Source of the DNA: Bacteroidota bacterium
GTDB lineage: Bacteria > Bacteroidota > Bacteroidia > Bacteroidales > JACABE01
DNA: 34,652 nt
Direction of reading: 5' to 3'
Assembly (NCBI GenBank): GCA_013377005.1
Contig: JACABE010000019.1
Span: forward strand, 40,297-74,948
In this document: in pieces, positions 850-15,645 of the stretch
How positions within the stretch are numbered: the stretch's first letter is position 1
How the letters are laid out: each line of letters opens with the position of its first letter
The notes under the pieces: model-generated
Seen by the model: only the letters and a program-made list of their open reading frames with translations
What the model was told of the DNA's origin: nothing
The model's database searches: none
Program-made: the position numbers and the translations under genes

Positions 850-3276
850 TTGAATTATCCGGCTAACATAGAACAAAAAATTGGATTCGATAGCATTCGT
901 CAACTTATTATCAATGAATGCATCAGTATGATGGGTCACCGTCAGATTGAAAAAATAAGCTGTAAGTATAATTATGCCGAAATAAATACCCTACTGAATC
1001 AAACCGAAGAATTCCGTCAGATTCTTTTATTTGACAATTACTTCCCTTCTCAGGATTATTTTGATTTGACAACTGTAATTGACAGTATCAGAATCATTGG
1101 CACTTTTATTGAAATTCAATCTCTTATTGAATTACGCTTATCAGTTGCAACAATACTTAATTGCATCAAATTTCTTCGTCCTGTTGATGAAGAAATTAAA
1201 TATCCTGAGCTAAATAAACTGGCTGATAATGTTCATTTAAATGAAATTATTATCATAGCTATCGAACGTATTTTGGATGAAAAAGGAATTATAAAAGATG
1301 ATGCTTCAGATAATTTACGAAAAATAAGAAAAGATTTAAAAATAAAAACTGCAAATGCAGAGAAAAAACTCAACCAAACACTCTCAATTGCAAAAAAAGA
1401 AGGTTGGACTGGTGAGGATGTATCCGTTACTATAAGAAACGGGAGGGCTGTTATACCTGTGAGTGCTACCAATAAAAGGAAAATTAAAGGATTTGTTCAC
1501 GATGCTTCTGCTACCGGTCAAACATATTACATAGAACCTGAAGAAGTTTTTGAATTAAATAATGACATCAGAGAATTAGAAAATGACGAACGCCTTGAAA
1601 TAGTAAAAATTCTTACCGAATTCACTGATTTCCTGCGTCCTTTTAGTTACGACTTAAAAAATGCCTACTACTTTTTAGCCCAAATGGATGGCATCAGAGC
1701 AAAAGCTAAATTTGCCATCAAAATTGAAGGAATTAAACCGCTTTTAAATAATAGCGCAACAATGGAATGGTACGAAGCTAAACATCCCCTCCTCTATTTG
1801 TCGCACAAAGCTCAGAAAAAAATTATAGAGCCACTGAATATTAAACTTGACAATCAACACAGGATACTAATTATTTCAGGGCCCAATGCCGGTGGTAAAT
1901 CCGTTTGTTTGAAAACTGTAGGTTTATTACAATATATGCTGCAATGTGGCTTATTGGTTCCTATGAAACATACTTCAGAAACTGGCATTTTCAATAACTT
2001 ATTTATTGACATAGGCGATGAACAATCCATAGAAAACGATTTGAGTACTTATAGTTCTCATTTACTGAATATGAAAACTTTAGCAGCCAATGCAACACCC
2101 GAAACATTATTTCTCATTGATGAATTTGGTACCGGTACCGAACCTCAATTGGGTGGAGCCATTGCCGAAGCCATACTCGAAGAACTTAATGCTAAAAAAG
2201 CTTTTGGAGTTGTTACCACACATTATTCTAATCTAAAGTTAATGGCCGATTCCAACAACGGAATTGTGAATGGAGCCATGCTGTATGATACAGGGAAAAT
2301 GCAGCCTTTGTACAAATTAAAAATAGGCAAGCCCGGTAGTTCATTTGCATTTGAAATTGCCAAAAATATAGGATTACAACAGCACATTCTCGACAAAGCC
2401 ATGCAAAAATCAGGAAAATCTCACCTTGATTTTGAACAGCAATTACAGCAACTGGAAGTTGATAAAGAAGAAATAAGCAGAAAACAGCAGGAACTTAAAG
2501 TAGCGGATGAATTTCTTTCAGAAATGATTGATAAATACCGCAATCTGAACGAAAAGCTTGACAATACCAAAGGTATTATCGTAAAAAAAGCAAAAGAAGA
2601 TGCCAAAGAACTGATCAATCAAACCAATAGAATTATTGAGAATGCGGTAAGGATGATTAAGGAAAGCAATGCAGATAAAGATATTACGCGAGAAGCAAGG
2701 GAAAGCATTCAGCATTTCGAAGAAAGAATTGAAAAACATGACTACTCCCTTAAAAAACAAAAACCAAAGCGGGATGCTGGTTTAAAAAAAGAAATTGACA
2801 ACTCTCCTATTTTCATTGGCGATTATGTTAGAATTATTGGTATGCAAACAGTGGGCGAAGTTGAATTTATTAAAAACGATAAGGTTTTAGTACTGGCAAA
2901 TTCTATTCGGGTTACCCTGCCACTGAATCAACTGGAAAAAGTTTCAAAAAAAGAAGCGTTGCAAAAGACCAAAGCTCCCAAAAGTAATACTTATGGTAAC
3001 GTAATGAAGGATATTTCAGATAAAGCCAGTAAATTTAATCCTTCCATTGATATCAGGGGCAAAAGAGCGGATGAAGCAATTTCTTTGGTTAAACACCTTG
3101 TTGATGAAGCCATTTTACTGAGCGTTTACGAACTCACCATACTGCATGGCAAGGGAAATGGTATTTTACGACATGTTATCCGCGAATATCTGAGAGGCAT
3201 AAGCGAAATAAAGAGTTTTAAAGACGAACACATCGAACGTGGCGGCGATGGAATTACATTGGTTAGTTTGAAATAA
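850..3276 (+). CDS. mutS2: Endonuclease MutS2 (MutS core + Smr domain)
   Basis: MutS2 is a MutS paralogue without the mismatch-binding domain. It is reported to suppress homologous recombination and, in some bacteria, to act on collided ribosomes. The 808-residue protein shows the ABC-type ATPase Walker A GPNAGGKS at residues 344-351, a Walker B region LFLIDEFGTGTEP, a long charged coiled-coil segment, and a C-terminal Smr domain (about 734-808) with DIRGKR and the HGKG motif at 766-769. The start is a TTG, chosen because it sits just below an exact TAnnTTTG box and gives the family N-terminus. Its last 14 codons, stop included, are repeated downstream of the next gene (3678-3719), which suggests that something inserted at this 3' end. 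Function is by family; which biological role dominates here is unknown. Confidence 0.95.
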   Translation: MNYPANIEQKIGFDSIRQLIINECISMMGHRQIEKISCKYNYAEINTLLNQTEEFRQILLFDNYFPSQDYFDLTTVIDSIRIIGTFIEIQSLIELRLSVATILNCIKFLRPVDEEIKYPELNKLADNVHLNEIIIIAIERILDEKGIIKDDASDNLRKIRKDLKIKTANAEKKLNQTLSIAKKEGWTGEDVSVTIRNGRAVIPVSATNKRKIKGFVHDASATGQTYYIEPEEVFELNNDIRELENDERLEIVKILTEFTDFLRPFSYDLKNAYYFLAQMDGIRAKAKFAIKIEGIKPLLNNSATMEWYEAKHPLLYLSHKAQKKIIEPLNIKLDNQHRILIISGPNAGGKSVCLKTVGLLQYMLQCGLLVPMKHTSETGIFNNLFIDIGDEQSIENDLSTYSSHLLNMKTLAANATPETLFLIDEFGTGTEPQLGGAIAEAILEELNAKKAFGVVTTHYSNLKLMADSNNGIVNGAMLYDTGKMQPLYKLKIGKPGSSFAFEIAKNIGLQQHILDKAMQKSGKSHLDFEQQLQQLEVDKEEISRKQQELKVADEFLSEMIDKYRNLNEKLDNTKGIIVKKAKEDAKELINQTNRIIENAVRMIKESNADKDITREARESIQHFEERIEKHDYSLKKQKPKRDAGLKKEIDNSPIFIGDYVRIIGMQTVGEVEFIKNDKVLVLANSIRVTLPLNQLEKVSKKEALQKTKAPKSNTYGNVMKDISDKASKFNPSIDIRGKRADEAISLVKHLVDEAILLSVYELTILHGKGNGILRHVIREYLRGISEIKSFKDEHIERGGDGITLVSLK
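3235..3276 (+). repeat. Direct repeat copy 1 (3' end of mutS2)
   Basis: Last 42 bp of mutS2 including its stop codon. It matches 3678-3719 at 38 of 42 positions by eye. This is the copy that is part of the intact gene. Confidence 0.85.
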
Positions 3277-3313
3277 AATTTACTATAAAAGTAAATAAAA
3301 GATAAATTCATAT

Positions 3314-3321
3314 TATTTTTG
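3314..3321 (+). promoter_or_regulatory. TAnnTTTG box immediately before higA
   Basis: TATTTTTG ends 4 nt before the ATG at 3326. If used, transcription would start at or next to the start codon, giving a leaderless message. The match could be chance in this AT-rich spacer. Confidence 0.4.
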
Positions 3322-3325
3322 TATT

Positions 3326-3673
3326 ATGAATAAAATAATTGATGCCAACGAATTAATACCTGCAAAAGCTACTCATCCCGGTATTTTGATAAAAGATGAA
3401 ATAGAATGTATTGGTATAACACAAAAGGAATTAGCGTTAAAGCTAGGGATTGCACCCAATATTGTAAATGAATTAATTAAAGGAAAGCGAAATATAACAG
3501 CAGCTTTAGCTATTAAATTAGAAGAAATATTAAAAATTGATGCCCAATACTGGATGCAGTTACAAGCACAATATGAAATACAAACGATAAAAATCAGACA
3601 AAAAAACGAAATTAACAAACTTACTATTTCCGATAAAATTAAACGCAAATTATTAAACAATGCGGCTATGTAG
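3326..3673 (+). CDS. HigA-type XRE antitoxin, apparently without a toxin partner
   Basis: DNA-binding antitoxin of the HigA (VapI-like) family. The 115-residue protein opens with the typical HPGILIKDEIECIGITQ stretch and then carries a lambda-repressor-like helix-turn-helix (KELALKLGI to NELIKGKRNIT). This is followed by the family's KLEEILKIDAQYWMQLQAQYE helix region. HigA normally neutralises the RelE-like HigB ribonuclease encoded just upstream and represses the pair. Here no HigB is present: mutS2 ends 49 bp upstream, and nothing toxin-like follows. The gene and its spacers lie exactly between two copies of the mutS2 3' end, so it probably arrived as a small insertion. It may be a solitary antitoxin or a plain regulator. 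Family call is strong; the solitary role is inferred from context. Confidence 0.9.
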   Translation: MNKIIDANELIPAKATHPGILIKDEIECIGITQKELALKLGIAPNIVNELIKGKRNITAALAIKLEEILKIDAQYWMQLQAQYEIQTIKIRQKNEINKLTISDKIKRKLLNNAAM

Positions 3674-3677
3674 CAAT

Positions 3678-3719
3678 GAATGTGGTGGCGATGGAATTAC
3701 ATTGGTTAGTTTGAAGTAG
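3678..3719 (+). repeat. Direct repeat copy 2: displaced remnant of the mutS2 3' end
   Basis: Encodes E-C-G-G-D-G-I-T-L-V-S-L-K-stop, against E-R-G-G-D-G-I-T-L-V-S-L-K-stop in mutS2. Differences are CGT to TGT, GGC to GGT, AAA to AAG and TAA to TAG, so three of four leave the reading unchanged. That pattern looks like a diverged mutS2 allele rather than a recent slippage product. It is followed by the terminator at 3781, which may once have served mutS2. Confidence 0.85.
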
Positions 3720-3780
3720 GAGATTATTTAGGCAAGATGCCGTTTATATAACATCTTAGCGCGACGCTACGATGAACAGG

Positions 3781-3809
3781 GCCTTTCAGAAATGGAAGGC
3801 TTTTTTTTT
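3781..3809 (+). terminator. Intrinsic terminator
   Basis: GCCTTTC at 3781-3787 and GGAAGGC at 3794-3800 pair over 7 bp with one G-U pair, followed by nine T. It closes the mutS2-higA segment. Confidence 0.8.
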
Positions 3810-3845
3810 AATAAAATAATGCACGACATCTCTTGGCTTAGCTAA

Positions 3846-3875
3846 CCTATATTTTTGCTAAAAATTAAATATAGG
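3846..3875 (+). promoter_or_regulatory. Inverted repeat containing a promoter box upstream of the 76-aa gene
   Basis: CCTATATTT (3846-3854) and AAATATAGG (3867-3875) are perfect 9-bp inverted arms around a 12-bp centre. A TATTTTTG box (3850-3857), matching TAnnTTTG, lies in the left arm. A protein bound to this palindrome would cover the promoter, so it is a good operator candidate for the gene at 3923. Confidence 0.5.
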
Positions 3876-3922
3876 GAAGCTGAAAACTTTTTAGAGTAAG
3901 CAAAATTTAATAAACATATTTT

Positions 3923-4153
3923 ATGTCACAAATAATTAGCAGAGGAAAGGAATTAATCCGGATTAACCCAGTCAACAACAAAATTGAATATTCAACCAAT
4001 GAAGGAAGAAGTTGGTTAAACAGATATTCAAGTTCTTTGTGCGGAGATTTTTTAGATTTGACCGATAATGGAAAAGAAATCTTAGCAACAACATCAAAAG
4101 GATTTTATTACTCCCCAAATGATGGAAGAAGTTGGTATAAAAGAAGTTTATAG
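3923..4153 (+). CDS. Small protein with two Asp-box (BNR-like) repeats
   Basis: I do not recognise a characterised family. The 76-residue protein has no signal peptide or membrane segment. It contains two similar segments, YSTNEGRSWLNR and YSPNDGRSWYKR, about 45 residues apart. Each matches the Asp-box pattern S-x-(N/D)-x-G-x-S-W seen in BNR/sialidase-type beta-propellers. Two boxes would make only a fraction of a propeller, so it either oligomerises or is a small beta-hairpin protein. It is preceded by an inverted repeat overlapping a promoter box and followed after 65 bp by another unassigned gene, so the two may share a transcript. The repeats make a coding role likely; the function is unknown. 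Confidence 0.7.
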   Translation: MSQIISRGKELIRINPVNNKIEYSTNEGRSWLNRYSSSLCGDFLDLTDNGKEILATTSKGFYYSPNDGRSWYKRSL

Positions 4154-4218
4154 GTACATAAGCTATTTAAAATTAGTCGTTTAACAGTCTGTTATAGTCT
4201 TACTTAAAAACTAAAAAG

Positions 4219-4917
4219 ATGATTAAAAATTGGGAAAAATTCTATTCTGAAATTCAAAAGCTTTCATTAGCTGATTTAGAAATTAAAATTAAGGCGTATT
4301 ATGAAGAATTTAAAAGAAGTTCTTCATACGAGGATGAACGCTTAAGCATCTGTTTGTCACAACGAAAATACCTGATAAACGAAAATTTTCATTTTACACC
4401 CAATGCTGTCCGACATATCGAAAGGGTGAACCGTTTATTACTGGAAAGTACAGCTAAGGTAATTGAACGAACAAATCTGCTTTATAAGCAAATGGCAGAA
4501 CTCAAATCAAATAATGATGATTTCCTGACTGAATTTTCAGTTGATGGCACTGTATCTGTTGATTATATCGATGAAGCATCCGTACTGATTTTTAAAGAAG
4601 ATGAAAATAATGGGCAATCGGATTATGTGGCGATGGCAGATGTATTGGATTTTACACAAATTGCCTTTGAATATTTGGTTTCATTCAGACTTTGGTCAGA
4701 AAGTTATGCAATTGATAAACAAATTACAGATGATTCTTTGGAATATAATTGGAACCAGGATATACTGAATGTCTATAAACTAGGAAGTATTAATTTTTTT
4801 TGCAAGGCTTCACATATACTTTTCACGGATACCAACTATTCAATATCTGATATTATCCGAATCAGGAATATTTCTAACGAAGTAATAGTTACACATAAAA
4901 ATTTAACTCATGAATGA
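4219..4917 (+). CDS. Hypothetical protein, 232 aa, accessory region
   Basis: I do not recognise this protein. It appears soluble and acidic, with an alpha-helical N-terminal half rich in charged residues (roughly 1-100, including KLSLADLEIKIKAYYEEFKR). A more mixed second half includes VDYIDEASVLIFKEDENN and a C-terminal IIRIRNISNEVIV. There is no signal peptide, membrane helix, Walker motif or metal-binding cluster. Its stop lies 8 bp inside the following gene (start 4910), which implies translational coupling and a shared role with the YD-repeat-like protein. The codon pattern is clean over the full length. Position between a HigA antitoxin and DUF262 nucleases suggests an accessory or defence function, but that is context only. 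Confidence 0.8.
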   Translation: MIKNWEKFYSEIQKLSLADLEIKIKAYYEEFKRSSSYEDERLSICLSQRKYLINENFHFTPNAVRHIERVNRLLLESTAKVIERTNLLYKQMAELKSNNDDFLTEFSVDGTVSVDYIDEASVLIFKEDENNGQSDYVAMADVLDFTQIAFEYLVSFRLWSESYAIDKQITDDSLEYNWNQDILNVYKLGSINFFCKASHILFTDTNYSISDIIRIRNISNEVIVTHKNLTHE

Positions 4918-5551
4918 TAATTATATTCTTATCGAAACCAGACTATTCGAGAATGGAAGGATGCGAATAAAAAGAAAATTAAACGCAACAGGAGAATGGG
5001 ATGAGCAAACCTTTTCAACAGAATTAAATAAAAAGCAAGAAGCTAAAGAAGAACCTTTTACTTTTAAAAATAAAACGATCATTAGCTTTCAAAAAGGAAG
5101 TTATTGTATTAAAGACAAATACGATGCTTTAGGCAGAGTTGTTATTATGAAAGTTTACGAACATAATAAATTAACTAATTATACAGAATTTAAGTATAAT
5201 AGTCCTTATACAAAGACAAAGTGTGATCAATATGTATCTTATGAATGCCCAAGAAAAATACAATATAGTAAGAAAATTAGCTATAATCCTAACGGAGAAA
5301 TAATACAAGAAACCTGCTTTTATCCTAAGGGTGAAATAGCCTGGTATGCTAATCGTAATTATAATAAACAAGGACAACTTACTGAAGTTTCGACTTATAA
5401 CAATATGGATATTTTGATATACAAAAAAATCGACACTTACAATAATGGAGAAATTATTAAAAAGGAAAAATTTATTCATAAAGATTTTTTCCATAAATGG
5501 GAACCAGGTAATGGTGGAAATTTAGATTTTTGCCTTGACACAAACAGATAA
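4910..5551 (+). CDS. YD/MORN-like repeat protein, 213 aa
   Basis: No characterised family recognised. The protein has several short repeats of the form Y-(D/N)-x-x-G-(R/E/Q) followed by beta-strand-like residues: KYDALGRVVIM, SYNPNGEIIQE, NYNKQGQLTEV and TYNNGEIIKKE. This pattern resembles YD repeats of Rhs-type proteins and the YwqK-like antitoxin repeats, and predicts a small beta-sheet ribbon. There is no export signal. It overlaps the upstream 232-aa gene by 8 bp and is probably translated with it. Repeat proteins of this kind often act as immunity or antitoxin partners, so the two genes could form a toxin-immunity-like pair; this is a guess from architecture. Coding status is secure, function is not. 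Confidence 0.75.
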   Translation: MNDNYILIETRLFENGRMRIKRKLNATGEWDEQTFSTELNKKQEAKEEPFTFKNKTIISFQKGSYCIKDKYDALGRVVIMKVYEHNKLTNYTEFKYNSPYTKTKCDQYVSYECPRKIQYSKKISYNPNGEIIQETCFYPKGEIAWYANRNYNKQGQLTEVSTYNNMDILIYKKIDTYNNGEIIKKEKFIHKDFFHKWEPGNGGNLDFCLDTNR

Positions 5552-5599
5552 CTAATCAAATTTAAATTTCATAGATAACATACATATTAGGAATTTAAA

Positions 5600-5607
5600 T
5601 ATCTTTG
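5600..5607 (+). promoter_or_regulatory. TAnnTTTG promoter box upstream of the exonuclease remnant
   Basis: TATCTTTG matches the consensus and lies about 30 bp before the ATG at 5639. With the gene below it destroyed, this promoter may now drive the DUF262 genes starting at 5796, which have no obvious box closer. Confidence 0.4.
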
Positions 5608-5638
5608 ATGATTCATTAATATGAATTCATAATATAAC

Positions 5639-5764
5639 ATGGACAGCTTTACAGCAATTGATTTTGAAACCGCTCTACTAGATGGAACGGTTTAATAAGA
5701 CCTGAAAGATGAAGTAGATAAGGCATGGGAAAAATTATATTTATTGAAGAAAATCGAAATATAA
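5639..5764 (+). pseudogene. Remnant of a DnaQ-like 3'-5' exonuclease gene
   Basis: The ATG at 5639 opens MDSFTAIDFETA, the N-terminus and first catalytic motif (D-x-E) of DEDD exonucleases of the DNA polymerase III epsilon type that are common in Bacteroidota. The frame then runs LLDGTV into two consecutive stops (5693-5698). The same frame continues open to 5764 with DLKDEVDKAWEKLYLLKK, which looks coding but has no exonuclease motifs that I recognise. The remainder of the exonuclease, normally about 170 residues or more, is missing. The simplest reading is a gene reduced by deletion to its head joined to an unrelated tail. Confidence 0.6.
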
Positions 5765-5795
5765 ACAACTTATTATTTAACTAAAAAACAGAAAT

Positions 5796-7136
5796 ATGAC
5801 TGAGAATGTGATACTTGAAACAAAAACACTTCGTGAAATATTTAAAATAAGAAAGGATGATTTAGAAGAGAAACACTTAAATTTGCCAATCTCTATTCCC
5901 GATTATCAAAGAATATATTGTTGGACTGAGAATAATGTCCACAAACTATTGGATGATATTGTCGAAAGTGCTGATAAGACCTATCCCTATCATTTAGGGA
6001 GTTTGATTTTACACAAAACAAACAGAGATATTAAAGTAGACGAGCAGAACTTTAAAAAAGAGGATGTTTATGCTATAGTTGATGGACAGCAAAGATTGGT
6101 TACTCTTACTTTGTTACTTTTACAAATAAAAGATGATATTTCTGTGCCACTTCTTAATGAGAAATTTGAGTCCACAGAAGCTCAAGCATATATTGCCTAC
6201 AACAAAACATTAATTCAAAATTATGTTGACAAAAATAAAGATAAGATTAAAGTTGATAATTTATTAGACAAACTTCAATTCAGTGTTTTGATTATCAATG
6301 ATGGTTCATTGGATTTGGCTTATACTTTCTTTTCCAATCAAAATTCGAGAGGTAAATCGCTTACAGACTATGATTTATTAAAAGCTCACCATTTGAGATT
6401 TATTCCTATTGAAAAACAGGCAATTCATTTAGCTGAACGCTGGGATAATGTTGTGTTGAATTCTGGTAATGATGCCAGCGATAAAGAATTAGGGCGAACA
6501 ATTGGAATCTATTTGTTCCGATTGCGCAAATGGATGAGAAAAAAACAATGGAGTGATGATCAAAAATTCAAGGTAAAAACAGAGTTTGAAGCTGCTATAA
6601 CCATTCCAGATGTTCCACCTTTCGGTGAAAAGTTTCATTTCTACGAATCAATACAAGGAGGGGCTCATTTCTTTGCTTACGCAGATCACTATATTTATAA
6701 ATTTAGAAATTTCGTGAAAACACATGAATATAACACTCTAAATGTGTTGAACAGCGAATCACATTGGTGGTATAAAGATGCAATTGAAACGCTCTTGTTT
6801 GCTTATTATCTGAAGTTTGGTACAATCTATCTGAGCGAAGCTTTATACTGCATTGAACGAATAATTTCAGAGCACAGATATGGTTCGGGGCGCTCAAGTC
6901 TTCGTGCAGTCTTAGAACACGCAAACAATTCTGAAATTGTGATGATGATTGACCAAGCCACTTCACCAACTTTTTTCTTAGCAGAGGCTTTAAATATAAT
7001 CAAAAAAAACTCAAAAAAAGAGCTCCAAGGAATACAAGTCCGATATAATAATTATGTTATAGAAATCCAAAAACAGTTAAAACAAACAATGTGTGTTGAT
7101 AGTATTATTAAATTCAGTAACGAAAAAGCAAAATAG
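5796..7136 (+). CDS. DUF262 protein (GmrSD-like N-terminal ParB-fold domain), first of a pair
   Basis: DUF262 proteins have a ParB/sulfiredoxin-like fold; in GmrS-type and SspE-type systems this domain hydrolyses nucleotides and controls a DUF1524 nuclease that attacks modified phage DNA. The 446-residue protein has the family signs in order: IPDYQR at 34-39 followed by W43, HLGSLIL at 66-72, the key VDGQQR at 95-100, and NSRGKSLTDYDLLKAHHLR at 183-201. The C-terminal half is helical and lacks the E-H-x-x-P and G-N-L motifs of DUF1524, so it carries no nuclease domain of its own. The next gene starts 2 bp after its stop and does have that domain, so the two probably form one complex or regulate each other. 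Defence function is inferred from family; the target is unknown. Confidence 0.88.
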   Translation: MTENVILETKTLREIFKIRKDDLEEKHLNLPISIPDYQRIYCWTENNVHKLLDDIVESADKTYPYHLGSLILHKTNRDIKVDEQNFKKEDVYAIVDGQQRLVTLTLLLLQIKDDISVPLLNEKFESTEAQAYIAYNKTLIQNYVDKNKDKIKVDNLLDKLQFSVLIINDGSLDLAYTFFSNQNSRGKSLTDYDLLKAHHLRFIPIEKQAIHLAERWDNVVLNSGNDASDKELGRTIGIYLFRLRKWMRKKQWSDDQKFKVKTEFEAAITIPDVPPFGEKFHFYESIQGGAHFFAYADHYIYKFRNFVKTHEYNTLNVLNSESHWWYKDAIETLLFAYYLKFGTIYLSEALYCIERIISEHRYGSGRSSLRAVLEHANNSEIVMMIDQATSPTFFLAEALNIIKKNSKKELQGIQVRYNNYVIEIQKQLKQTMCVDSIIKFSNEKAK

Positions 7137-7138
7137 AA

Positions 7139-8968
7139 ATGGAAAAAAGAAATACGCCCGCAACAATAGCAGCAAGCCAAAATACATTTTCTATCCCATT
7201 GTACCAACGATTGTTCGAATGGGAGAAAGTACAGATTACACAACTTTTAAAAGATTTATACGTTGGATTTAATCAAAAACCGAATGAACCATATTATATT
7301 GGTATGTTAACTGCTCACAATAATGACTTAGTGGATGGTCAGCAACGATTTACAGTACTTATTTTAATGGCAATTGTATTCAAATGGGATGAATTTTTAG
7401 GAATAAAGACTGATGATAAAATTGAAAAAGAGAATATAAAAATCAGGTTGTCATTTTTTGCAAGAGAAAAGGACAGGAATTACCTTTTGCAAAAAATAAA
7501 AGGTGAGATTACAACTGATTATAAGAATTCCAAAATGGAAACTGGAATAAAATATATTACAGATTTTGTTGATAAGTTGGATAATAAAAATGAATTTATT
7601 AAATATGTATACGAAAATCTGACATTCTTTATTTCTGAACTTCCTGATAAGTATGAGTCTCAAGATTTGAATAAGTATTTCGAGGCGATGAATGCAACTG
7701 GTAAGGGTTTGGAAAATCATGAAATTCTGAAAGTGAATTTATTAAAAGATGTATCTCCAGATAATCAAGTTCTTTATACAAAAATATGGAATGTTGTTTC
7801 TGATATGGATAAACAACTTATAAGACCAAAGTATGTAAATAAAATTCAAGAGGATAAAAGCACGTTAGGTCATCGACAAATGGCTGCATTGCAATATATT
7901 ACAAATACACAAGAATTATTTAAAAACTGTAATAGTTCAAATTCATCTTATGAAATATCTACTGAATTCAAATCAATAAAGGAAATTACAGCAATTTCAA
8001 TTCCACCAAAAGAAAGCTACCGTTCAATAGGTGAAAAGGCAATTCTTAATTTTCCTGAGTTTCTATTGCAAGTTTTACGATTGCAAATAGGAGAAGAAAA
8101 ACAAAGAGAAATACCAAATTTCTTTAATGTTCACAAATTACAGGAAACATTTGTATGTCTTAAAAGAGATACTGCAAGCGTTGAATTATTTTTCCAAAAC
8201 CTCTTGAAATATAGAATTCTTTTCGATTATTTTATCATAAGAGTCAGCAATAAAAACGATAATACAACCAATTATACTTTGTCTTACAAGGAGGACGATA
8301 ATGATACTTTGGATAGGGAAAAACTGATTAAATATCAATCAATGCTTTATGTAAGTACTTCATCGAATATCTGGTTATCACAAGTGCTAAGTTTTCTTGA
8401 AACAAATCCAACAGAAGTTACCATTTTATCACTTTACAATAATTTAGTTAATTTTGACAATGAAAGACATAGCAAAGAAACTGAATTATCACTCAAATAT
8501 GGAGATATCGACCGTTATTGGTTCTGGCGGCTGGATTACTATTTGTGGAAAGCTGAAAGTGAGAAGCCTAAAGACGAACAGAATAAAGCGATAATAGATT
8601 ATTCGTTCAAAGCCAATAGGTCAATTGAACATTTACATCCTCAAACAAGTACAACGCCTTGGGATAATAAGGATCTTAACAGTTTCGGTAATTTAGCAAT
8701 GATTTCCCCAGAATTTAATTCTACTCAGAGTAATGATGATGAAAGACTGAAATTTGCGAGAATTGAAACCCAAATCGGTGGAAAAAACTTATTGGAAAGT
8801 ATAAAGATGCTTTTAATGTACACTAAAGGAGAAGGAAAAGTATGGTCAATAGAACTTGCTGATATACATGAAAATGAAATGATAGATATTTTAATTAATT
8901 CTTTTGATGATAAATATGCAAAAATTAAAGAGACATTAGAAAGCTGCAAAAAACAAAAAACGAGTTAA
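7139..8968 (+). CDS. DUF262-DUF1524 protein (GmrSD-like HNH-type nuclease), second of a pair
   Basis: This 609-residue protein has both halves of a GmrSD-type enzyme. The N-terminal DUF262 part includes FSIPLYQRLFEWE (17-29), VDGQQRF at 65-71 and NATGKGLENHEILK at 185-198. The C-terminal DUF1524 part contains IEHLHPQT beginning at residue 496 (H498, H500), then FGNLAMIS with N518, and N527, the His and Asn residues expected of the HNH-type active site. GmrSD is a type IV restriction enzyme that cuts glucosylated hydroxymethylcytosine DNA; related SspE acts with phosphorothioation. No modification genes lie in this window, which favours a modified-DNA-targeting or stand-alone role. It starts 2 bp after the upstream DUF262 gene and ends in a strong terminator, so the two form a bicistron. 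Confidence 0.9.
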   Translation: MEKRNTPATIAASQNTFSIPLYQRLFEWEKVQITQLLKDLYVGFNQKPNEPYYIGMLTAHNNDLVDGQQRFTVLILMAIVFKWDEFLGIKTDDKIEKENIKIRLSFFAREKDRNYLLQKIKGEITTDYKNSKMETGIKYITDFVDKLDNKNEFIKYVYENLTFFISELPDKYESQDLNKYFEAMNATGKGLENHEILKVNLLKDVSPDNQVLYTKIWNVVSDMDKQLIRPKYVNKIQEDKSTLGHRQMAALQYITNTQELFKNCNSSNSSYEISTEFKSIKEITAISIPPKESYRSIGEKAILNFPEFLLQVLRLQIGEEKQREIPNFFNVHKLQETFVCLKRDTASVELFFQNLLKYRILFDYFIIRVSNKNDNTTNYTLSYKEDDNDTLDREKLIKYQSMLYVSTSSNIWLSQVLSFLETNPTEVTILSLYNNLVNFDNERHSKETELSLKYGDIDRYWFWRLDYYLWKAESEKPKDEQNKAIIDYSFKANRSIEHLHPQTSTTPWDNKDLNSFGNLAMISPEFNSTQSNDDERLKFARIETQIGGKNLLESIKMLLMYTKGEGKVWSIELADIHENEMIDILINSFDDKYAKIKETLESCKKQKTS

Positions 8969-9000
8969 CTTTAAAAATGAATTAAAAATAATCATAAAAG

Positions 9001-9025
9001 GCCGATAGAGATTTTATCGGCTTTT
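9001..9025 (+). terminator. Intrinsic terminator of the DUF262 operon
   Basis: GCCGATA (9001-9007) and TATCGGC (9015-9021) form a perfect 7-bp stem with a 7-nt loop, followed by TTTT. Confidence 0.8.
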
Positions 9026-9068
9026 CTAATTTAATACAACCACGACACCCTTTGTCTTACCACCGCCC

Positions 9069-9076
9069 TAACTTTG
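9069..9076 (+). promoter_or_regulatory. TAnnTTTG promoter box for the DnaB-like ATPase
   Basis: TAACTTTG, an exact consensus match, ends 16 bp before the ATG at 9093. It lies just past the preceding terminator, so this gene is an independent unit. Confidence 0.55.
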
Positions 9077-9092
9077 CATAAAAAACAAAGAA

Positions 9093-9782
9093 ATGGAAAC
9101 TTTAAATAGAAAAAGAATTGAAAGCGGTATTATTATTAATGATCATAACATTTCATTTGAAGAAGGAAAAATTTCAATAATAAGTGGAAGACCAAATACA
9201 GGGAAGACTTGTTTAATGATTGAAATAGCAAAGAATATGCTTAAAGCGCAAATTCCGGTTACAATTTTTTCATTAGCACTTGGAAATCAAGAAATGTTTG
9301 GTGCATATTCATCATTACAAAAATATGGCGAAATTAATAATACTGTTTTTGAAATAAAAGGTGATTTCGAATCTGATAATGCTTGTTACTCATATGGTAT
9401 TATTGATTTTCATTATTGGCTTCCGTCAAATCTTTCTATTGAAAATATCATTAATGAAATTATATATTCTATAAGTCGAAACAGAACAAAAGTTTTTTTT
9501 ATTGACTATTTTCAGTTTGTGAAATTTGATAATAGAAATAAATATGAATTACTTAGAACATTAATTAAAGAGTTAAACATTATTTTAATTTGTTTATGCA
9601 TTAATGAAATTGACTGTCATGATTTCCTTAAAAACAGAAAAAGCACTGCTGTAACTGAATTTATACTTGAAAATGCATATTATTTAGATACAATAATAAA
9701 TCTCAATGGTGATAAAGAAACATACGTAAGCTTAACTGCTTATCAAAACGGTGAATTTATAGGAAGGATAAAGCATCATTAA
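9093..9782 (+). CDS. Stand-alone DnaB/RecA-like ATPase, 229 aa
   Basis: The protein resembles only the C-terminal ATPase domain of the replicative helicase DnaB. It has Walker A GRPNTGKT at 32-39, a DnaB-like strand PVTIFSLAL at 55-63 (in DnaB this is the FSLEM region), and Walker B VFFIDYFQ at 134-141. The N-terminal DnaG-interaction domain of DnaB is missing, and at 229 residues it is about half the length of the full helicase. The glutamate normally present in the FSLEM segment is not conserved (SLALG). It may be a mobile-element or phage-type ATPase, or an accessory RecA-fold protein. It has its own promoter and no partner gene in the same direction except the broken WYL gene. The ATPase fold is confident; helicase activity is not. 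Confidence 0.75.
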   Translation: METLNRKRIESGIIINDHNISFEEGKISIISGRPNTGKTCLMIEIAKNMLKAQIPVTIFSLALGNQEMFGAYSSLQKYGEINNTVFEIKGDFESDNACYSYGIIDFHYWLPSNLSIENIINEIIYSISRNRTKVFFIDYFQFVKFDNRNKYELLRTLIKELNIILICLCINEIDCHDFLKNRKSTAVTEFILENAYYLDTIINLNGDKETYVSLTAYQNGEFIGRIKHH

Positions 9783-9945
9783 AATTATTGAAAGAAGAAG
9801 GAATTAAGCAGTTCAATAATGATTATAAAGAAAAAGAAAAATCATTGAAATGTTGTTAATATCCGTAATATTATTGACTTTTGCAATGAAGAACAATTAT
9901 CAAAATCGAATAATGTAAAAATCGGGTAAACAAAAAATTAAGCTT

Positions 9946-10842
9946 ATGTCAAAAAGAGAAGCCATTTCACGCTACAATCTGATTATTAAAAAACTTAGAA
10001 AACACCCAAGTACTTTTAAGGAAATAGAAGATTATCTTTCTTTGGAGTCTGATATGCAAGCATACAATTTCAATGTTTCAAAACGAACTTTTCAAAGAGA
10101 CCTAGAAGATATACGTTCAATTTATAATATTGACATTCAGTATAACAATTCACAGAAACATTATTTTATTGATAATGATGATCAACCTGATGTGAATGAA
10201 AGAATATTAGAAGCTTTTGATACTTTTAATGCGTTGAATATTACAGACAGATTATCAGATTATATTCATTTTGAAAAACGAAGACCCCAGGGAACAGAAA
10301 ATCTTTATGGTTTACTTCATGCTATAAAGAATCGGTTACAGATTAAATTTACTTATCAGAAATATTGGGAAGATGAAATAAGTGAACGTCTTGTAGAACC
10401 TTATGCATTAAAGGAATTTAAAAACAGATGGTATGTTTTGGCATTTGATATAAAAGATAATCAGGTTAAAAGTTTTGCTTTGGATAGGCTTAGCGAACTT
10501 GAAATATAAAAAAAACATTTTCAATATCCTGTTGACTTTAATGTAACCGATCACTATAAGTATTGTTTTGGAATTATCAGTCCTAACGGATTAGAAGCTG
10601 AAGAAATAATTTTATCATTTGATTCCTATCAGGGAAAGTATATTAAATCATTACCATTACATGAAACACAAAAGATTTTAATTGATAATGAAAATGAATT
10701 ACAGATTAGATTAAAGTTATGTATCACTTTTGATTTTGTCATGGAAATACTGTCTTATGGTGAAACAGTGAAAGTAATACAACCTGAATCATTAATAAAT
10801 GAAATCCAAGCAGTTCTTCAAAATGCGTTGAATCTTTATTAA
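9946..10842 (+). pseudogene. WYL-domain transcriptional regulator interrupted by an in-frame stop
   Basis: WYL regulators have an N-terminal winged helix-turn-helix and a WYL ligand-binding domain, and often control defence loci. Residues 1-60 here match the helix-turn-helix (KREAISRYNLIIKKL onward), and the WYL core follows (LVEPYALKEFKNRWYVLAFD). The frame hits TAA at 10507-10509 after LDRLSELEI. It then continues open in the same frame to 10842 with a typical family C-terminus, including KHFQYPVDFNVTDHYKYCF and IQPESLINEIQAVLQ. Read through, the protein would be 298 residues, a normal length for the family. A single nonsense change is therefore the likely cause. The 187-residue product might still bind DNA; sequencing error at one base is the alternative. 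Confidence 0.8.
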
Positions 10843-11019
10843 AACGCCGATGAACGGATAAAAATGAAAATATCTGCTGATTTATTCTCGTTAAAAAACA
10901 ATAACCCCATTTTCTTATTTGTTGAAAAAATGCAACAAAAAATTAACTTCATTAACAATGAATGATAGCATTTCAGTAAATATGTTCAATCAACGAAGTT
11001 GCATTTGTATCTTTAATAA
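10843..11019 (+). other. Gene-free spacer between the WYL gene and the 21-bp arrays
   Basis: No frame or RNA gene is supportable. The first bases (AACGCCGATGAACGGATAAA) resemble the CGCGGAT-type intergenic element at 13649. The rest is AT-rich sequence without repeats or hairpins that I could recognise. Confidence 0.5.
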
Positions 11020-11040
11020 AATCTATTTGCACTAAAAACA

Positions 11041-11124
11041 TTCGATTTCCGAGCTAAAACATTGGATGCCGAAGCTAAAAGCTGCGGTATCTGAGCTAAT
11101 CACCTCTGCTTATCAGCTTTCTGC
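11041..11124 (+). repeat. 21-bp periodic repeat, array A (4 units)
   Basis: The word GCTA (GCTT in the last unit) recurs at 11053, 11074, 11095 and 11116, exactly 21 bp apart. It lies within units sharing a CCGAGCTAAAA-like core. Units are degenerate outside the core. Stops occur in the + frames, so it is not a coding repeat on that strand. Confidence 0.75.
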
Positions 11125-11190
11125 TGATTAGTGGTTATAAATGTTACAATAATTATTACATTGAAAATCTTGTTTTATTAATAACGAAGA

Positions 11191-11442
11191 TGGTAAACTT
11201 TGTGCAGGATGTGTGTTACTAAGTAAAATATGTCCGTTACTAAGTAAAACATATCCGTTACTCTATGCAACATATGTTTTTCTTTGTGAAACATGTCCGT
11301 TACTAAGTGCAGGATGTATTTTATTGAGTATAACACATTGCTATCTTTGTGCGGGATGTTGCTTGCTTAGGAAGCAACATTGCTTACTTTATACAACATA
11401 TCCGGTGCTAAGTAACGGAGGTTGGTTTCTTTGTAAGCTTGG
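11191..11442 (+). repeat. 21-bp tandem repeat, array B (12 units, no indels)
   Basis: Twelve consecutive 21-bp units begin at 11191, 11212, 11233 and so on to 11422 without any insertion or deletion. The dinucleotide GT falls at unit positions 12-13 in nine of twelve units. Two core types occur, TTACTAAGT and TTTCTTTGT-like. Units are strongly diverged, so the fixed register must be old or maintained. One frame is open across the array and would give a seven-residue repeat (CPLLSKT, YPLLYAT and so on), but it begins only with a GTG and is leucine/cysteine-rich. I treat that frame as a by-product. Twenty-one bp is two turns of B-DNA. Confidence 0.8.
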
Positions 11443-11472
11443 TGTTTTACAACGACTATTATTTATTTTTTT

Positions 11473-11480
11473 TATCTTTG
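11473..11480 (+). promoter_or_regulatory. TAnnTTTG promoter box for aguB
   Basis: TATCTTTG lies 17 bp before the ATG at 11497 and 30 bp beyond the last 21-bp unit, so the array sits directly upstream of this promoter. Confidence 0.55.
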
Positions 11481-11496
11481 CAACGAAAAATCGTAT

Positions 11497-12390
11497 GTGC
11501 ATATAAATTTTATCATCGTGGAAAACAAAAAAGTAAAAGTTGGATTAATACAAATGACTTGTACTAAAAACAAACAAGCCAATATCATTAAAGCAACAGA
11601 AAAAATAAAGCAGGCAGCCTCAGAGGGTGCTCAAATCATTTGCTTACAGGAATTGTTTGCATCGCTTTATTTCTGTGATGTGGAAGACTATGATAACTTT
11701 GCTTTGGCTGAAGCTATTCCCGGAAAAACCACAGATGATTTTTCGAAACTGGCAAAAGAATTGAATGTAGTCATCATTGCTTCTTTGTTCGAAAAACGTG
11801 CTGAAGGATTGTATCACAATACGGTGGCTGTGCTGGATGCTGATGGCAGCTATTTAGGAAAATATCGGAAAAACCATATCCCTGACGACCCCGCTTATTA
11901 CGAAAAGTTTTACTTTACACCCGGCGATTTAGGCTATAAAGTTTTTAAAACTAAATATGCAAACATAGGCACGTTAATCTGTTGGGATCAATGGTATCCC
12001 GAAGCTGCACGCATTACAGCATTGATGGGTGCCGAAATTATTTTTTACCCAACGGCTATTGGTTGGGCAACTTCGCAAACTTCAGAAGTTAACAATGAAC
12101 AATACAATGCATGGCAAACCATACAACGCAGCCATGCCATAGCCAATGGAATACATGTAGTAAGTGTAAATCGTACCGGACAAGAAGGCGAAATGAATTT
12201 CTGGGGTGGTTCATTCATCAGCAATCCTTTTGGGACTTTGCTTTACGAAGCAAGCCACCAAAACGAAGAAATACATGTTCAGGAATTAAATCTAACCAAA
12301 ACCAACGAATACCGTATTCACTGGCCCTTTTTAAGAGATCGAAGAATAGATACTTATGCACCTATTACCGAAAGATTTATTGACGAATAG
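11497..12390 (+). CDS. aguB: N-carbamoylputrescine amidase
   Basis: Cytoplasmic nitrilase-superfamily enzyme that hydrolyses N-carbamoylputrescine to putrescine, CO2 and ammonia, the last step of the agmatine route to polyamines. The Glu-Lys-Cys triad is visible: E in CLQELFAS, K in KYRKNHIPDD, and C in LICWDQWYPEAAR. The product is about 290-297 residues, the usual length. The start is uncertain: ATG at 11497 gives seven extra residues, while GTG at 11518 gives a start closer to the family norm. Both lie just below the TATCTTTG box. Agmatine deiminase (aguA) follows 142 bp downstream in the same direction and supplies the substrate, which strengthens the specific assignment over other carbon-nitrogen hydrolases. 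Confidence 0.92.
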   Translation: MHINFIIVENKKVKVGLIQMTCTKNKQANIIKATEKIKQAASEGAQIICLQELFASLYFCDVEDYDNFALAEAIPGKTTDDFSKLAKELNVVIIASLFEKRAEGLYHNTVAVLDADGSYLGKYRKNHIPDDPAYYEKFYFTPGDLGYKVFKTKYANIGTLICWDQWYPEAARITALMGAEIIFYPTAIGWATSQTSEVNNEQYNAWQTIQRSHAIANGIHVVSVNRTGQEGEMNFWGGSFISNPFGTLLYEASHQNEEIHVQELNLTKTNEYRIHWPFLRDRRIDTYAPITERFIDE

Positions 12391-12399
12391 TAATGATAG

Positions 12400-12445
12400 A
12401 AGTCGGAAGACTGAAGACCGAAGTTGGAAGACAGAAGACAGAAAA
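12400..12445 (+). repeat. GGAAGAC-type short-period repeat between aguB and aguA
   Basis: Short degenerate repeats of the form GAAGTCGGAAGACTGAAGAC, in steps of about 7 bp, directly after the aguB stop. No gene or terminator is visible. Similar low-complexity tracts are frequent between Bacteroidota genes. Confidence 0.6.
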
Positions 12446-14810: not shown

Positions 14811-14925
14811 ATTGAATGATGTGGTGATTTAATGATATGCTGATATGGTGATTTAGAAAGAATAAATTGTGGCTATCTATTTTAGTCACTTATTCAAAAT
14901 TAATAAATAGCGTATTTCTTTTTAA

Positions 14926-14970
14926 CTCTAAGTACTCTAAGTATTTTAAGTACTTTAGGCACTAAAATTA
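14926..14970 (+). repeat. 9-bp period repeat tract (CTCTAAGTA), copy 1
   Basis: Units CTCTAAGTA, CTCTAAGTA, TTTTAAGTA and CTTTAGGCA follow one another at exact 9-bp steps from 14926, in the spacer between the two cupin genes. Just upstream (14818-14860) is another short-period tract (GATATGCTGATATGGTGATT). No gene in this 168-bp gap. Confidence 0.7.
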
Positions 14971-15598: not shown

Positions 15599-15645
15599 CT
15601 CTCAAAATACTCTAAGTACTTTAAGTACTCCAAGTACTTTTAACT
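15599..15645 (+). repeat. 9-bp period repeat tract (CTCTAAGTA), copy 2
   Basis: CTCTAAGTA (15610), CTTTAAGTA (15619), CTCCAAGTA (15628) and CTTTTAAC (15637) follow in 9-bp steps just beyond and slightly into the 3' end of the YgbA-family gene. It matches the tract at 14926 in unit and orientation. Confidence 0.7.

Follow-up and report, generated by a model that had tools for sequence, protein, structure and literature searches.

Degenerate 21-bp repeat arrays ahead of aguB in a Bacteroidales genome as possible orphans of a gene-paired class of intergenic phased arrays

In centromere-like iteron arrays, phased sites stand in tandem next to the gene of the small partition protein that binds them, and type III toxin-antitoxin loci carry a repeat array upstream of the toxin gene, with a conserved folded RNA unit and a ribonuclease as the toxin. 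In Porphyromonas gingivalis, the BrickBuilt and PgRS/464 elements are minisatellites of 22, 23 and 41 nt, and the 23- and 41-nt repeats are, in the portions of the paper drawn on here, presented as one repeated sequence inside MITEs (PMC4596501). Intergenic heptamer direct repeats, e.g. TAACTGA, have been described in Bacteroidetes and other groups, and the sections used here give their function as unknown (PMC4679880). A survey of periodic repeats ranked heptamers first in abundance among intergenic tandem repeats, and the passages of it consulted make no mention of the arrays described below (PMC6344855). No description of gene-paired 21-bp arrays was found among the titles and abstract openings that text searches of one open-access library gave; on these and on the protein-family libraries searched, which fall short of a full survey, the pairing is taken to be undescribed. 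Here we report on two 21-bp arrays and on the large and apparently undescribed class that they brought to light.

The window, i.e. the whole stretch of DNA analyzed, comprises 34,652 nucleotides of a 3.69-Mb genome in 92 contigs (G000). The features that matter for the following are:

850 to 3276, plus strand: mutS2, left neighbor of the insert, with the Pfam domains MutS_V, Smr and MSSS
3273 to 11463, plus strand: insert of about 8.2 kb between mutS2 and aguB, absent in genomes G001 and G002, with the arrays as its right end
11041 to 11124, no strand assigned: array 1, four degenerate 21-bp units, GCTA in three of the four
11125 to 11190, no strand assigned: AT-rich spacer separating array 1 and array 2, as read from the sequence
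11191 to 11442, no strand assigned: array 2, twelve degenerate 21-bp units without indel, consensus TCGGTTACTTTGTAAAACATG
11213 to 11506, plus strand: 97-codon open frame over array 2, starting at GTG and running into aguB, judged not to be a gene
11497 to 12390, plus strand: aguB-like gene, right neighbor of array 2, with orthologs in G001, G002 and G004 that have no array

The gap between mutS2 and aguB measures about 100 bp in G001 and G002, which belong to the same genus, as compared to about 8.2 kb in the window, and homology to the insert-free G001 picks up again at 11464. With the start of aguB at 11497, the arrays are confirmed to lie between an accessory slot and aguB, as an earlier note on this sequence had put it. 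The genes of the insert encode an HTH protein, two GmrSD-type proteins, a DnaB-like ATPase and a WYL protein, a content that gives it the look of a defense island. A link of the array to aguB itself is not supported, since aguB in G001, G002 and G004 follows closely behind mutS2 (by homology for the first two, by reading for the third) without an upstream array, and aguB is consequently not the array's partner. In G003, the region ahead of aguB holds a gene of the protein family called A below together with its array, and no homology to mutS2 was found there.

Some further observations concern the surroundings only. The two GmrSD-type genes differ from one another and stand in tandem (5796-7136 and 7139-8968). 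The WYL gene (9946-10842) stops at 10509, the sequence downstream resembling its continuation, and is possibly truncated. Between aguB and a PAD_porph (agmatine-deiminase-like) gene there is a heptamer array, AGAAGAC, of period 7 (12398-12443), which belongs to a 7-bp class common in these genomes. Finally, 9-bp tandem repeats with the near-identical units ACTCTAAGT and TACTCTAAG are situated at 14925-14954 and 15608-15638, about 680 bp apart.

Identity at lag 21 within array 2 is 0.545, as compared to 0.274 (sd 0.029) in 1000 dinucleotide shuffles, where no lag from 1 to 69 gave more than 0.407 in any of the shuffles; at lags 42 and 63 it is 0.562 and 0.571, respectively. Each of the 12 units loses fit to the consensus when shifted from offset 0 to -1 or +1, and both measures thereby bear out the twelve indel-free units reported for 11191-11442. 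The units are nevertheless divergent, with a mean pairwise identity of 0.54 (range 0.29-0.81); T fills two columns in 12 of 12 units, with three further columns at 11 of 12. For array 1, lag-21 identity is 0.540 as compared to 0.246 (sd 0.054), a value reached in none of 5000 mononucleotide shuffles. The period-21 autocorrelation peak that the earlier note had named as a check is thus present above shuffled sequence in both arrays. The note's four units at 11041-11124 stand as far as the period is concerned, but the GCTA core occurs in only three of them, the fourth having GCTT. As array 2 starts 150 bp after the start of array 1, the arrays differ in register. Across the whole window, examined in 126-base windows at lags 5-59, the top value is that of lag 21 at the array site. 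The view that the region is not CRISPR-like also holds, as there is no constant repeat with unrelated spacers; the units follow each other head to tail, with similarity graded over the whole unit. A test for palindromes within units gave a mixed outcome, with 13 of 64 arrays at p<=0.05 and the window array not among them.

Used as a DNA query against its own genome, the window array matched only itself at E<=0.001, and a sequence model had no match below E 0.05 in the rest of that genome. With the array region as BLAST query, plasmids returned a single short chance match and phages returned none. The model of array 2 did retrieve arrays of the same period and different units in G003 and G004.

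In 800 kb of the own genome (two sets of stretches, not selected for arrays), we found 13 arrays outside long frames, each with a private unit. Six have a period of 21 bp (L146, L163, L240, L242, L243 and L255) and seven one of 41-43 bp (L153, two in L154, L161, L239, L241 and L254). There, every array that scores 0.69 or more and has a unit above 10 bp falls into these two period classes, the one exception being a 63-bp repeat within a frame (L240); an 87-bp array follows with a score of 0.68. Tandem Repeats Finder, applied to 0.80 Mb of five genomes (a sample partly selected for hits), agreed with the array scan in the main: units above 16 bp cluster at 21, 41-43, 63 and 84 bp, these 21- to 84-bp classes show 0-5% indels, and the outliers are one each of 23, 24 and 27 bp. 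Over 51 arrays from many genomes, mean excess identity is 0.363 at lag 21, as compared to 0.022 at lag 20 and 0.012 at lag 22, a sharp peak with nothing at 10 or 11, and arrays of the 42-bp type also have a weaker peak at 21. Arrays of 20, 22, 43 and 44 bp do occur, so phasing is not exact in all of them.

The single-contig genome G198 is far denser in arrays than the own genome, with about nine in 120 kb of other stretches (L338-L343), counted without filtering for coding repeats. Extrapolation from the stretches read would put the own genome at some 60 arrays and G198 at a few hundred. Twenty genomes of other families, on the other hand, yielded in 339 kb only two 63-bp hits near these periods, both coding-like by eye, and a looser threshold added weak, AT-rich lag-21 hits. 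Eighty named aguB loci gave two 21-bp hits (L083 and L086), again coding-like, and one 42-bp hit (L113), apparently made of 7-bp repeats, along with many arrays of 7 and 8 bp. Two G003 arrays, L052 and L053, have a unit sequence and about 100 bp of right flank in common by eye; at least one of them was thus copied along with its surroundings.

The starting point for the protein side was an array adjoining a 159-aa gene in L163 of the own genome. Five homologs of its product were read in G001, G003 and G004, and an array adjoins all five, while the pyrB loci of G001-G004, taken as a control, have none in four. Three protein families were followed in 393 genomes of the order: family A (about 160 aa) is found in 42, family B in at least 53 and family C in 13 of these. 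The members of A, B and C that were searched against Pfam and NCBIfam gave only weak matches, apart from one B protein that ends in carboxypeptidase-regulatory-like and related domains, and none of those searched matched a DNA-binding domain. Family A has no convincing relative among solved structures (best E 0.21), homology between A and B is not detectable, and no family relatives were found in viral contigs (A and B), phages (A) or plasmids (A, B and C). From a reading of their sequences, all three families appear helical. Elsewhere, a B gene of the own genome (L240, 13720-14409) is broken by a stop and still has its upstream array, and a 21-bp array in L183 (8433-8680) is located upstream of a gene whose product, with a peptidoglycan-binding domain, may represent a fourth partner family.

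Each family has its preferred side. An array was called when it scored at least 0.60 within 700 bp of the gene. For family A, 40 of 101 matches (the best ones from about 29 genomes and all from G198) and one G003 locus were read; for B, 36 loci, among the matches listed, and the gene of L341, come upon by chance; for C, 20 of 37 listed. The array is downstream in 27 of 41 A loci and upstream in four. For B it is upstream in 25 of 36 loci (25 of 37 when the array-free L341 gene is included) and downstream in two, and for C upstream in 14 of 20 and downstream in two. These counts retain the near-duplicate loci L281/L282, L286/L287, L301/L308 and L306/L310; subtraction of the four discovery loci leaves 26/40, 23/35 and 13/19 for A, B and C, respectively. 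At the same threshold, an array on the main side is missing in 14/41, 12/37 and 6/20 loci, some of which lie at contig ends. Among 400 control genes of 150-350 aa, from which A, B or C genes had not been purged, 9 have an array upstream and 23 downstream. By set, the upstream and downstream figures are 7/258 and 14/258 in the own genome, 2/44 and 8/44 in G198, and 0/98 and 1/98 in the twenty genomes of other families. With a looser threshold of 0.55, A arrays are downstream in 26 of 33 loci (one of them 966 bp off), only elsewhere in three and absent in four, and B arrays upstream in 23 of 30, only downstream in two and absent in five.

The period also depends on the family. The 14 upstream C arrays have 42 bp (7), 43 bp (6) or 85 bp (1), and the 25 B arrays 21 bp (20), 42 bp (4) or 62 bp (1). 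Of the 27 A arrays, 17 have a period of 21, 22, 63 or 64 bp, eight one of 41, 42 or 44 bp and two one of 84 bp. Within G198, an array accompanies seven of eight further A loci (in two only upstream) and five of six further B genes, always upstream in the latter, the sixth being L341; in both families the units differ by eye.

The alternative that survives best, although we think it unlikely and would give it about one chance in four, is that the arrays are functionless mutational by-products. Local duplication, favoring steps of two or four helical turns, would then leave minisatellites near often-exchanged genes. Indeed, units are locally homogenized and their sequence differs at nearly every locus read, the majority of own-genome arrays are orphans with no A, B or C gene adjoining, and L269 and L272, of one genus and with 75% DNA identity over about 1 kb, have unrelated array consensus sequences. 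Free slippage does not, however, lead one to expect a preferred side and a family-dependent period, nor a constant number of units between species pairs. Across about 1110 bp of array, the members of three related pairs are separated by 51 substitutions and by no small indel; the flanking DNA shows 38 gap events and 441 substitutions, a rate from which about four gap events would be expected in the arrays. In one of these arrays (L308), about 1 kb of extra DNA at about 2327-3330 splits the array relative to L301, the two being otherwise 95-96% identical there, and for its second piece blastn places two compensating one-base gaps that are absent from the other alignment. Together with the lag-21 peak of the 51 arrays, the missing small indels lend indirect support to the earlier note's equation of 21 bp with two helical turns.

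A motif common to A arrays is equally unexpected from free slippage. Across genera these arrays share a degenerate motif, roughly tTcngAangnCaantTtgtan, with an information content of 5.39 as compared to 3.48 (sd 0.17) over 20 arrays; when each array was left out in turn, 12 of 20 fitted at p<=0.05 and 11 of 20 at p<=0.03. The motif is absent from B arrays (mean z -0.1 for 27 of them), and it is misfitted by the A array of the own genome (p 0.61), while two of nine orphans score z 2.4-2.6. Arrays of family C also share a motif (z 5.0 for seven arrays of 43 bp and z 3.9 for nine of 42 bp), and those of B have almost none in common (z 2.5). These fits used one array per locus, at the stated period only, and left out L282, L308 and L310.

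Rather less probable is a transcribed repeat RNA that acts with the adjoining protein, as in a type III toxin-antitoxin pair. Such an RNA would suit an array at a preferred position beside a protein gene, with B and C arrays upstream, but A arrays sit on the opposite side. Some 42-bp arrays look rich in hairpins, and two of them covary strongly (L154, z 5.6, and L176, z 7.1, against a null that ignores block structure); among the arrays covered by this covariation scan, several of the 42-bp type, these two included, and a few B arrays were high, and most 21-bp arrays were near zero. On account of that null, a count with slid partners was added, in which compensatory changes come out somewhat above the slid controls; the difference is clearest in A arrays, with 0.106 of variant cells as compared to 0.049-0.066. 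Predicted pairs are, however, broken by most unit variants, namely 404 of 559 (72%) in 42-bp-type arrays, 409 of 550 (74%) in B, 253 of 358 (71%) in A and 59 of 97 (61%) in orphans. In addition, Rfam identified only a tRNA in the window, and two A members and one B member searched gave no match in PADLOC.

We hold it to be very improbable that the arrays are MITE-like elements with internal minisatellites, of the BrickBuilt and PgRS kind. The repeat lengths are similar to the 23 and 41 nt given for P. gingivalis in the parts of the source used (PMC4596501), a transposase-looking gene adjoins one 41-bp array (L154, by eye), and two G003 arrays have the common flank mentioned above. Units and flanks, however, vary by locus here, while the P. 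gingivalis elements, as far as that source was drawn on, repeat one sequence between inverted ends. A BrickBuilt-type MITE does not fit the window, where the repeat does not recur in its own genome and terminal inverted repeats are absent around both arrays: five inverted pairs were found in 10850-11560 and none encloses the two arrays, one 15-base pair (80%) bracketing array 1 with its second arm inside array 2.

Least credible of all, and close to negligible, are protein-coding heptapeptide repeats, for although a period of 21 equals seven codons and 32 of 46 21-bp arrays have at least one open frame (23.1 expected from column permutation), the other 14 have no open frame among the six, and frame is not kept at periods of 41, 43, 22 and 44 bp, which makes coding unlikely as a general rule. 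Many of the arrays are accordingly non-coding. In the window, the eight best units of the array are open in two frames, at least one open frame having a chance probability of 0.53 by column permutation, and the possibility raised earlier that the frame over array 2 is a real protein was not borne out, given its GTG start and its run into aguB.

With coding unlikely, folded RNA and free slippage disfavored and an A motif that extends across genera, we prefer to see the arrays as a platform of duplex DNA. Duplex DNA is probably the acting form, and it would probably serve as a protein platform on one face of the helix. Each unit would be a variant of one site, presented on the same face every two turns, and an oligomerizing protein, either the cognate family member or a common partner, would coat the array and thereby control or mark the adjoining gene. 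Intrinsic curvature, which the earlier note had put forward, is not supported as an explanation: the window array has no unusual 10.5-bp phasing of AA/TT (p 0.625), and A-tract phasing is not general among 50 other arrays, five of which reach p<=0.05. The earlier note's interpretation is borne out in part, and the protein coating that it offered beside curvature is possible.

Where, then, do the window arrays belong? They share with the class the 21-bp repeat and the intergenic position, and they have no A, B or C gene adjoining. The search of window frames of at least 60 codons yielded no A or B gene at E<=0.001, and frames of 60-350 codons matched none of the three families at E<=1. In the comparison set, the arrays nearest to array 2 are from G003, and some of these stand upstream of a B gene or next to a B remnant. 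For array 1, most of the best matches come from family A, although it fits the motif of that family only marginally (p 0.09), and a comparison with the family A array upstream of G003 aguB gave only a 13-base match (E 0.05). The A gene and array ahead of aguB in G003 make it plausible that G000 has lost a module. The window arrays are best read as orphans, and that they are orphans of a class of gene-paired, intergenic phased arrays, acting as a same-face platform on duplex DNA, is a tentative reading to which we give a little less than an even chance. The window copy would have come with the mutS2-aguB insert or stayed behind after the loss of its own gene; alternatively, it would serve a shared factor.

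More generally, the findings suggest a new two-part chromosomal element, composed of a protein gene and a private phased array, in which the family sets the side and biases the length of the repeat, and from which orphans are left over or served in trans; we find this possible, with belief and doubt nearly in balance and doubt slightly ahead. As part of the same joint reading, and with the same slight leaning towards doubt, such elements may have multiplied and diversified within genomes, keeping to 21 bp mostly in B and more often than not in A, and in C exclusively to 42/43 bp or its double. Taken by itself, the window copy is only moderately interesting. Its importance lies in the class that it exposed, whose tie to particular protein families is not visible from the window sequence alone. 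Should the pairing prove functional, repeats between genes that are commonly set aside as minisatellites would be parts of a gene-linked system, and three nameless protein families would gain a testable partner. The class also offers a direct test of why tandem repeats in bacteria have two and four helical turns as their preferred lengths.

Compared with known systems, the arrays resemble those of type III toxin-antitoxin loci in being locus-specific tandem repeats beside the gene of a small protein, at a position that is the usual one for B and C and not for A, where the array is downstream; they differ in their far more divergent units and in showing few signs of conserved pairing. With iteron arrays they share phased tandem sites beside a protein gene, a likeness that may be taken as a functional analogy only, as no partition context was seen, the units are strongly divergent and there are many arrays per chromosome. 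Like the heptamers, they are intergenic direct repeats, but the heptamers, in the sections of that report used here, have 7-bp units, one common sequence and no named protein partner (PMC4679880), and the 7- and 8-bp arrays of the present genomes form a separate class. The closest match in dimensions is with BrickBuilt and PgRS, which in the portions consulted have repeats of 22-23 and 41 nt, a Bacteroidetes host and many copies per genome, BrickBuilt being intergenic as well (PMC4596501). While those elements have one repeat sequence and inverted ends, the present arrays have private units, and many of them stand beside a particular protein family.
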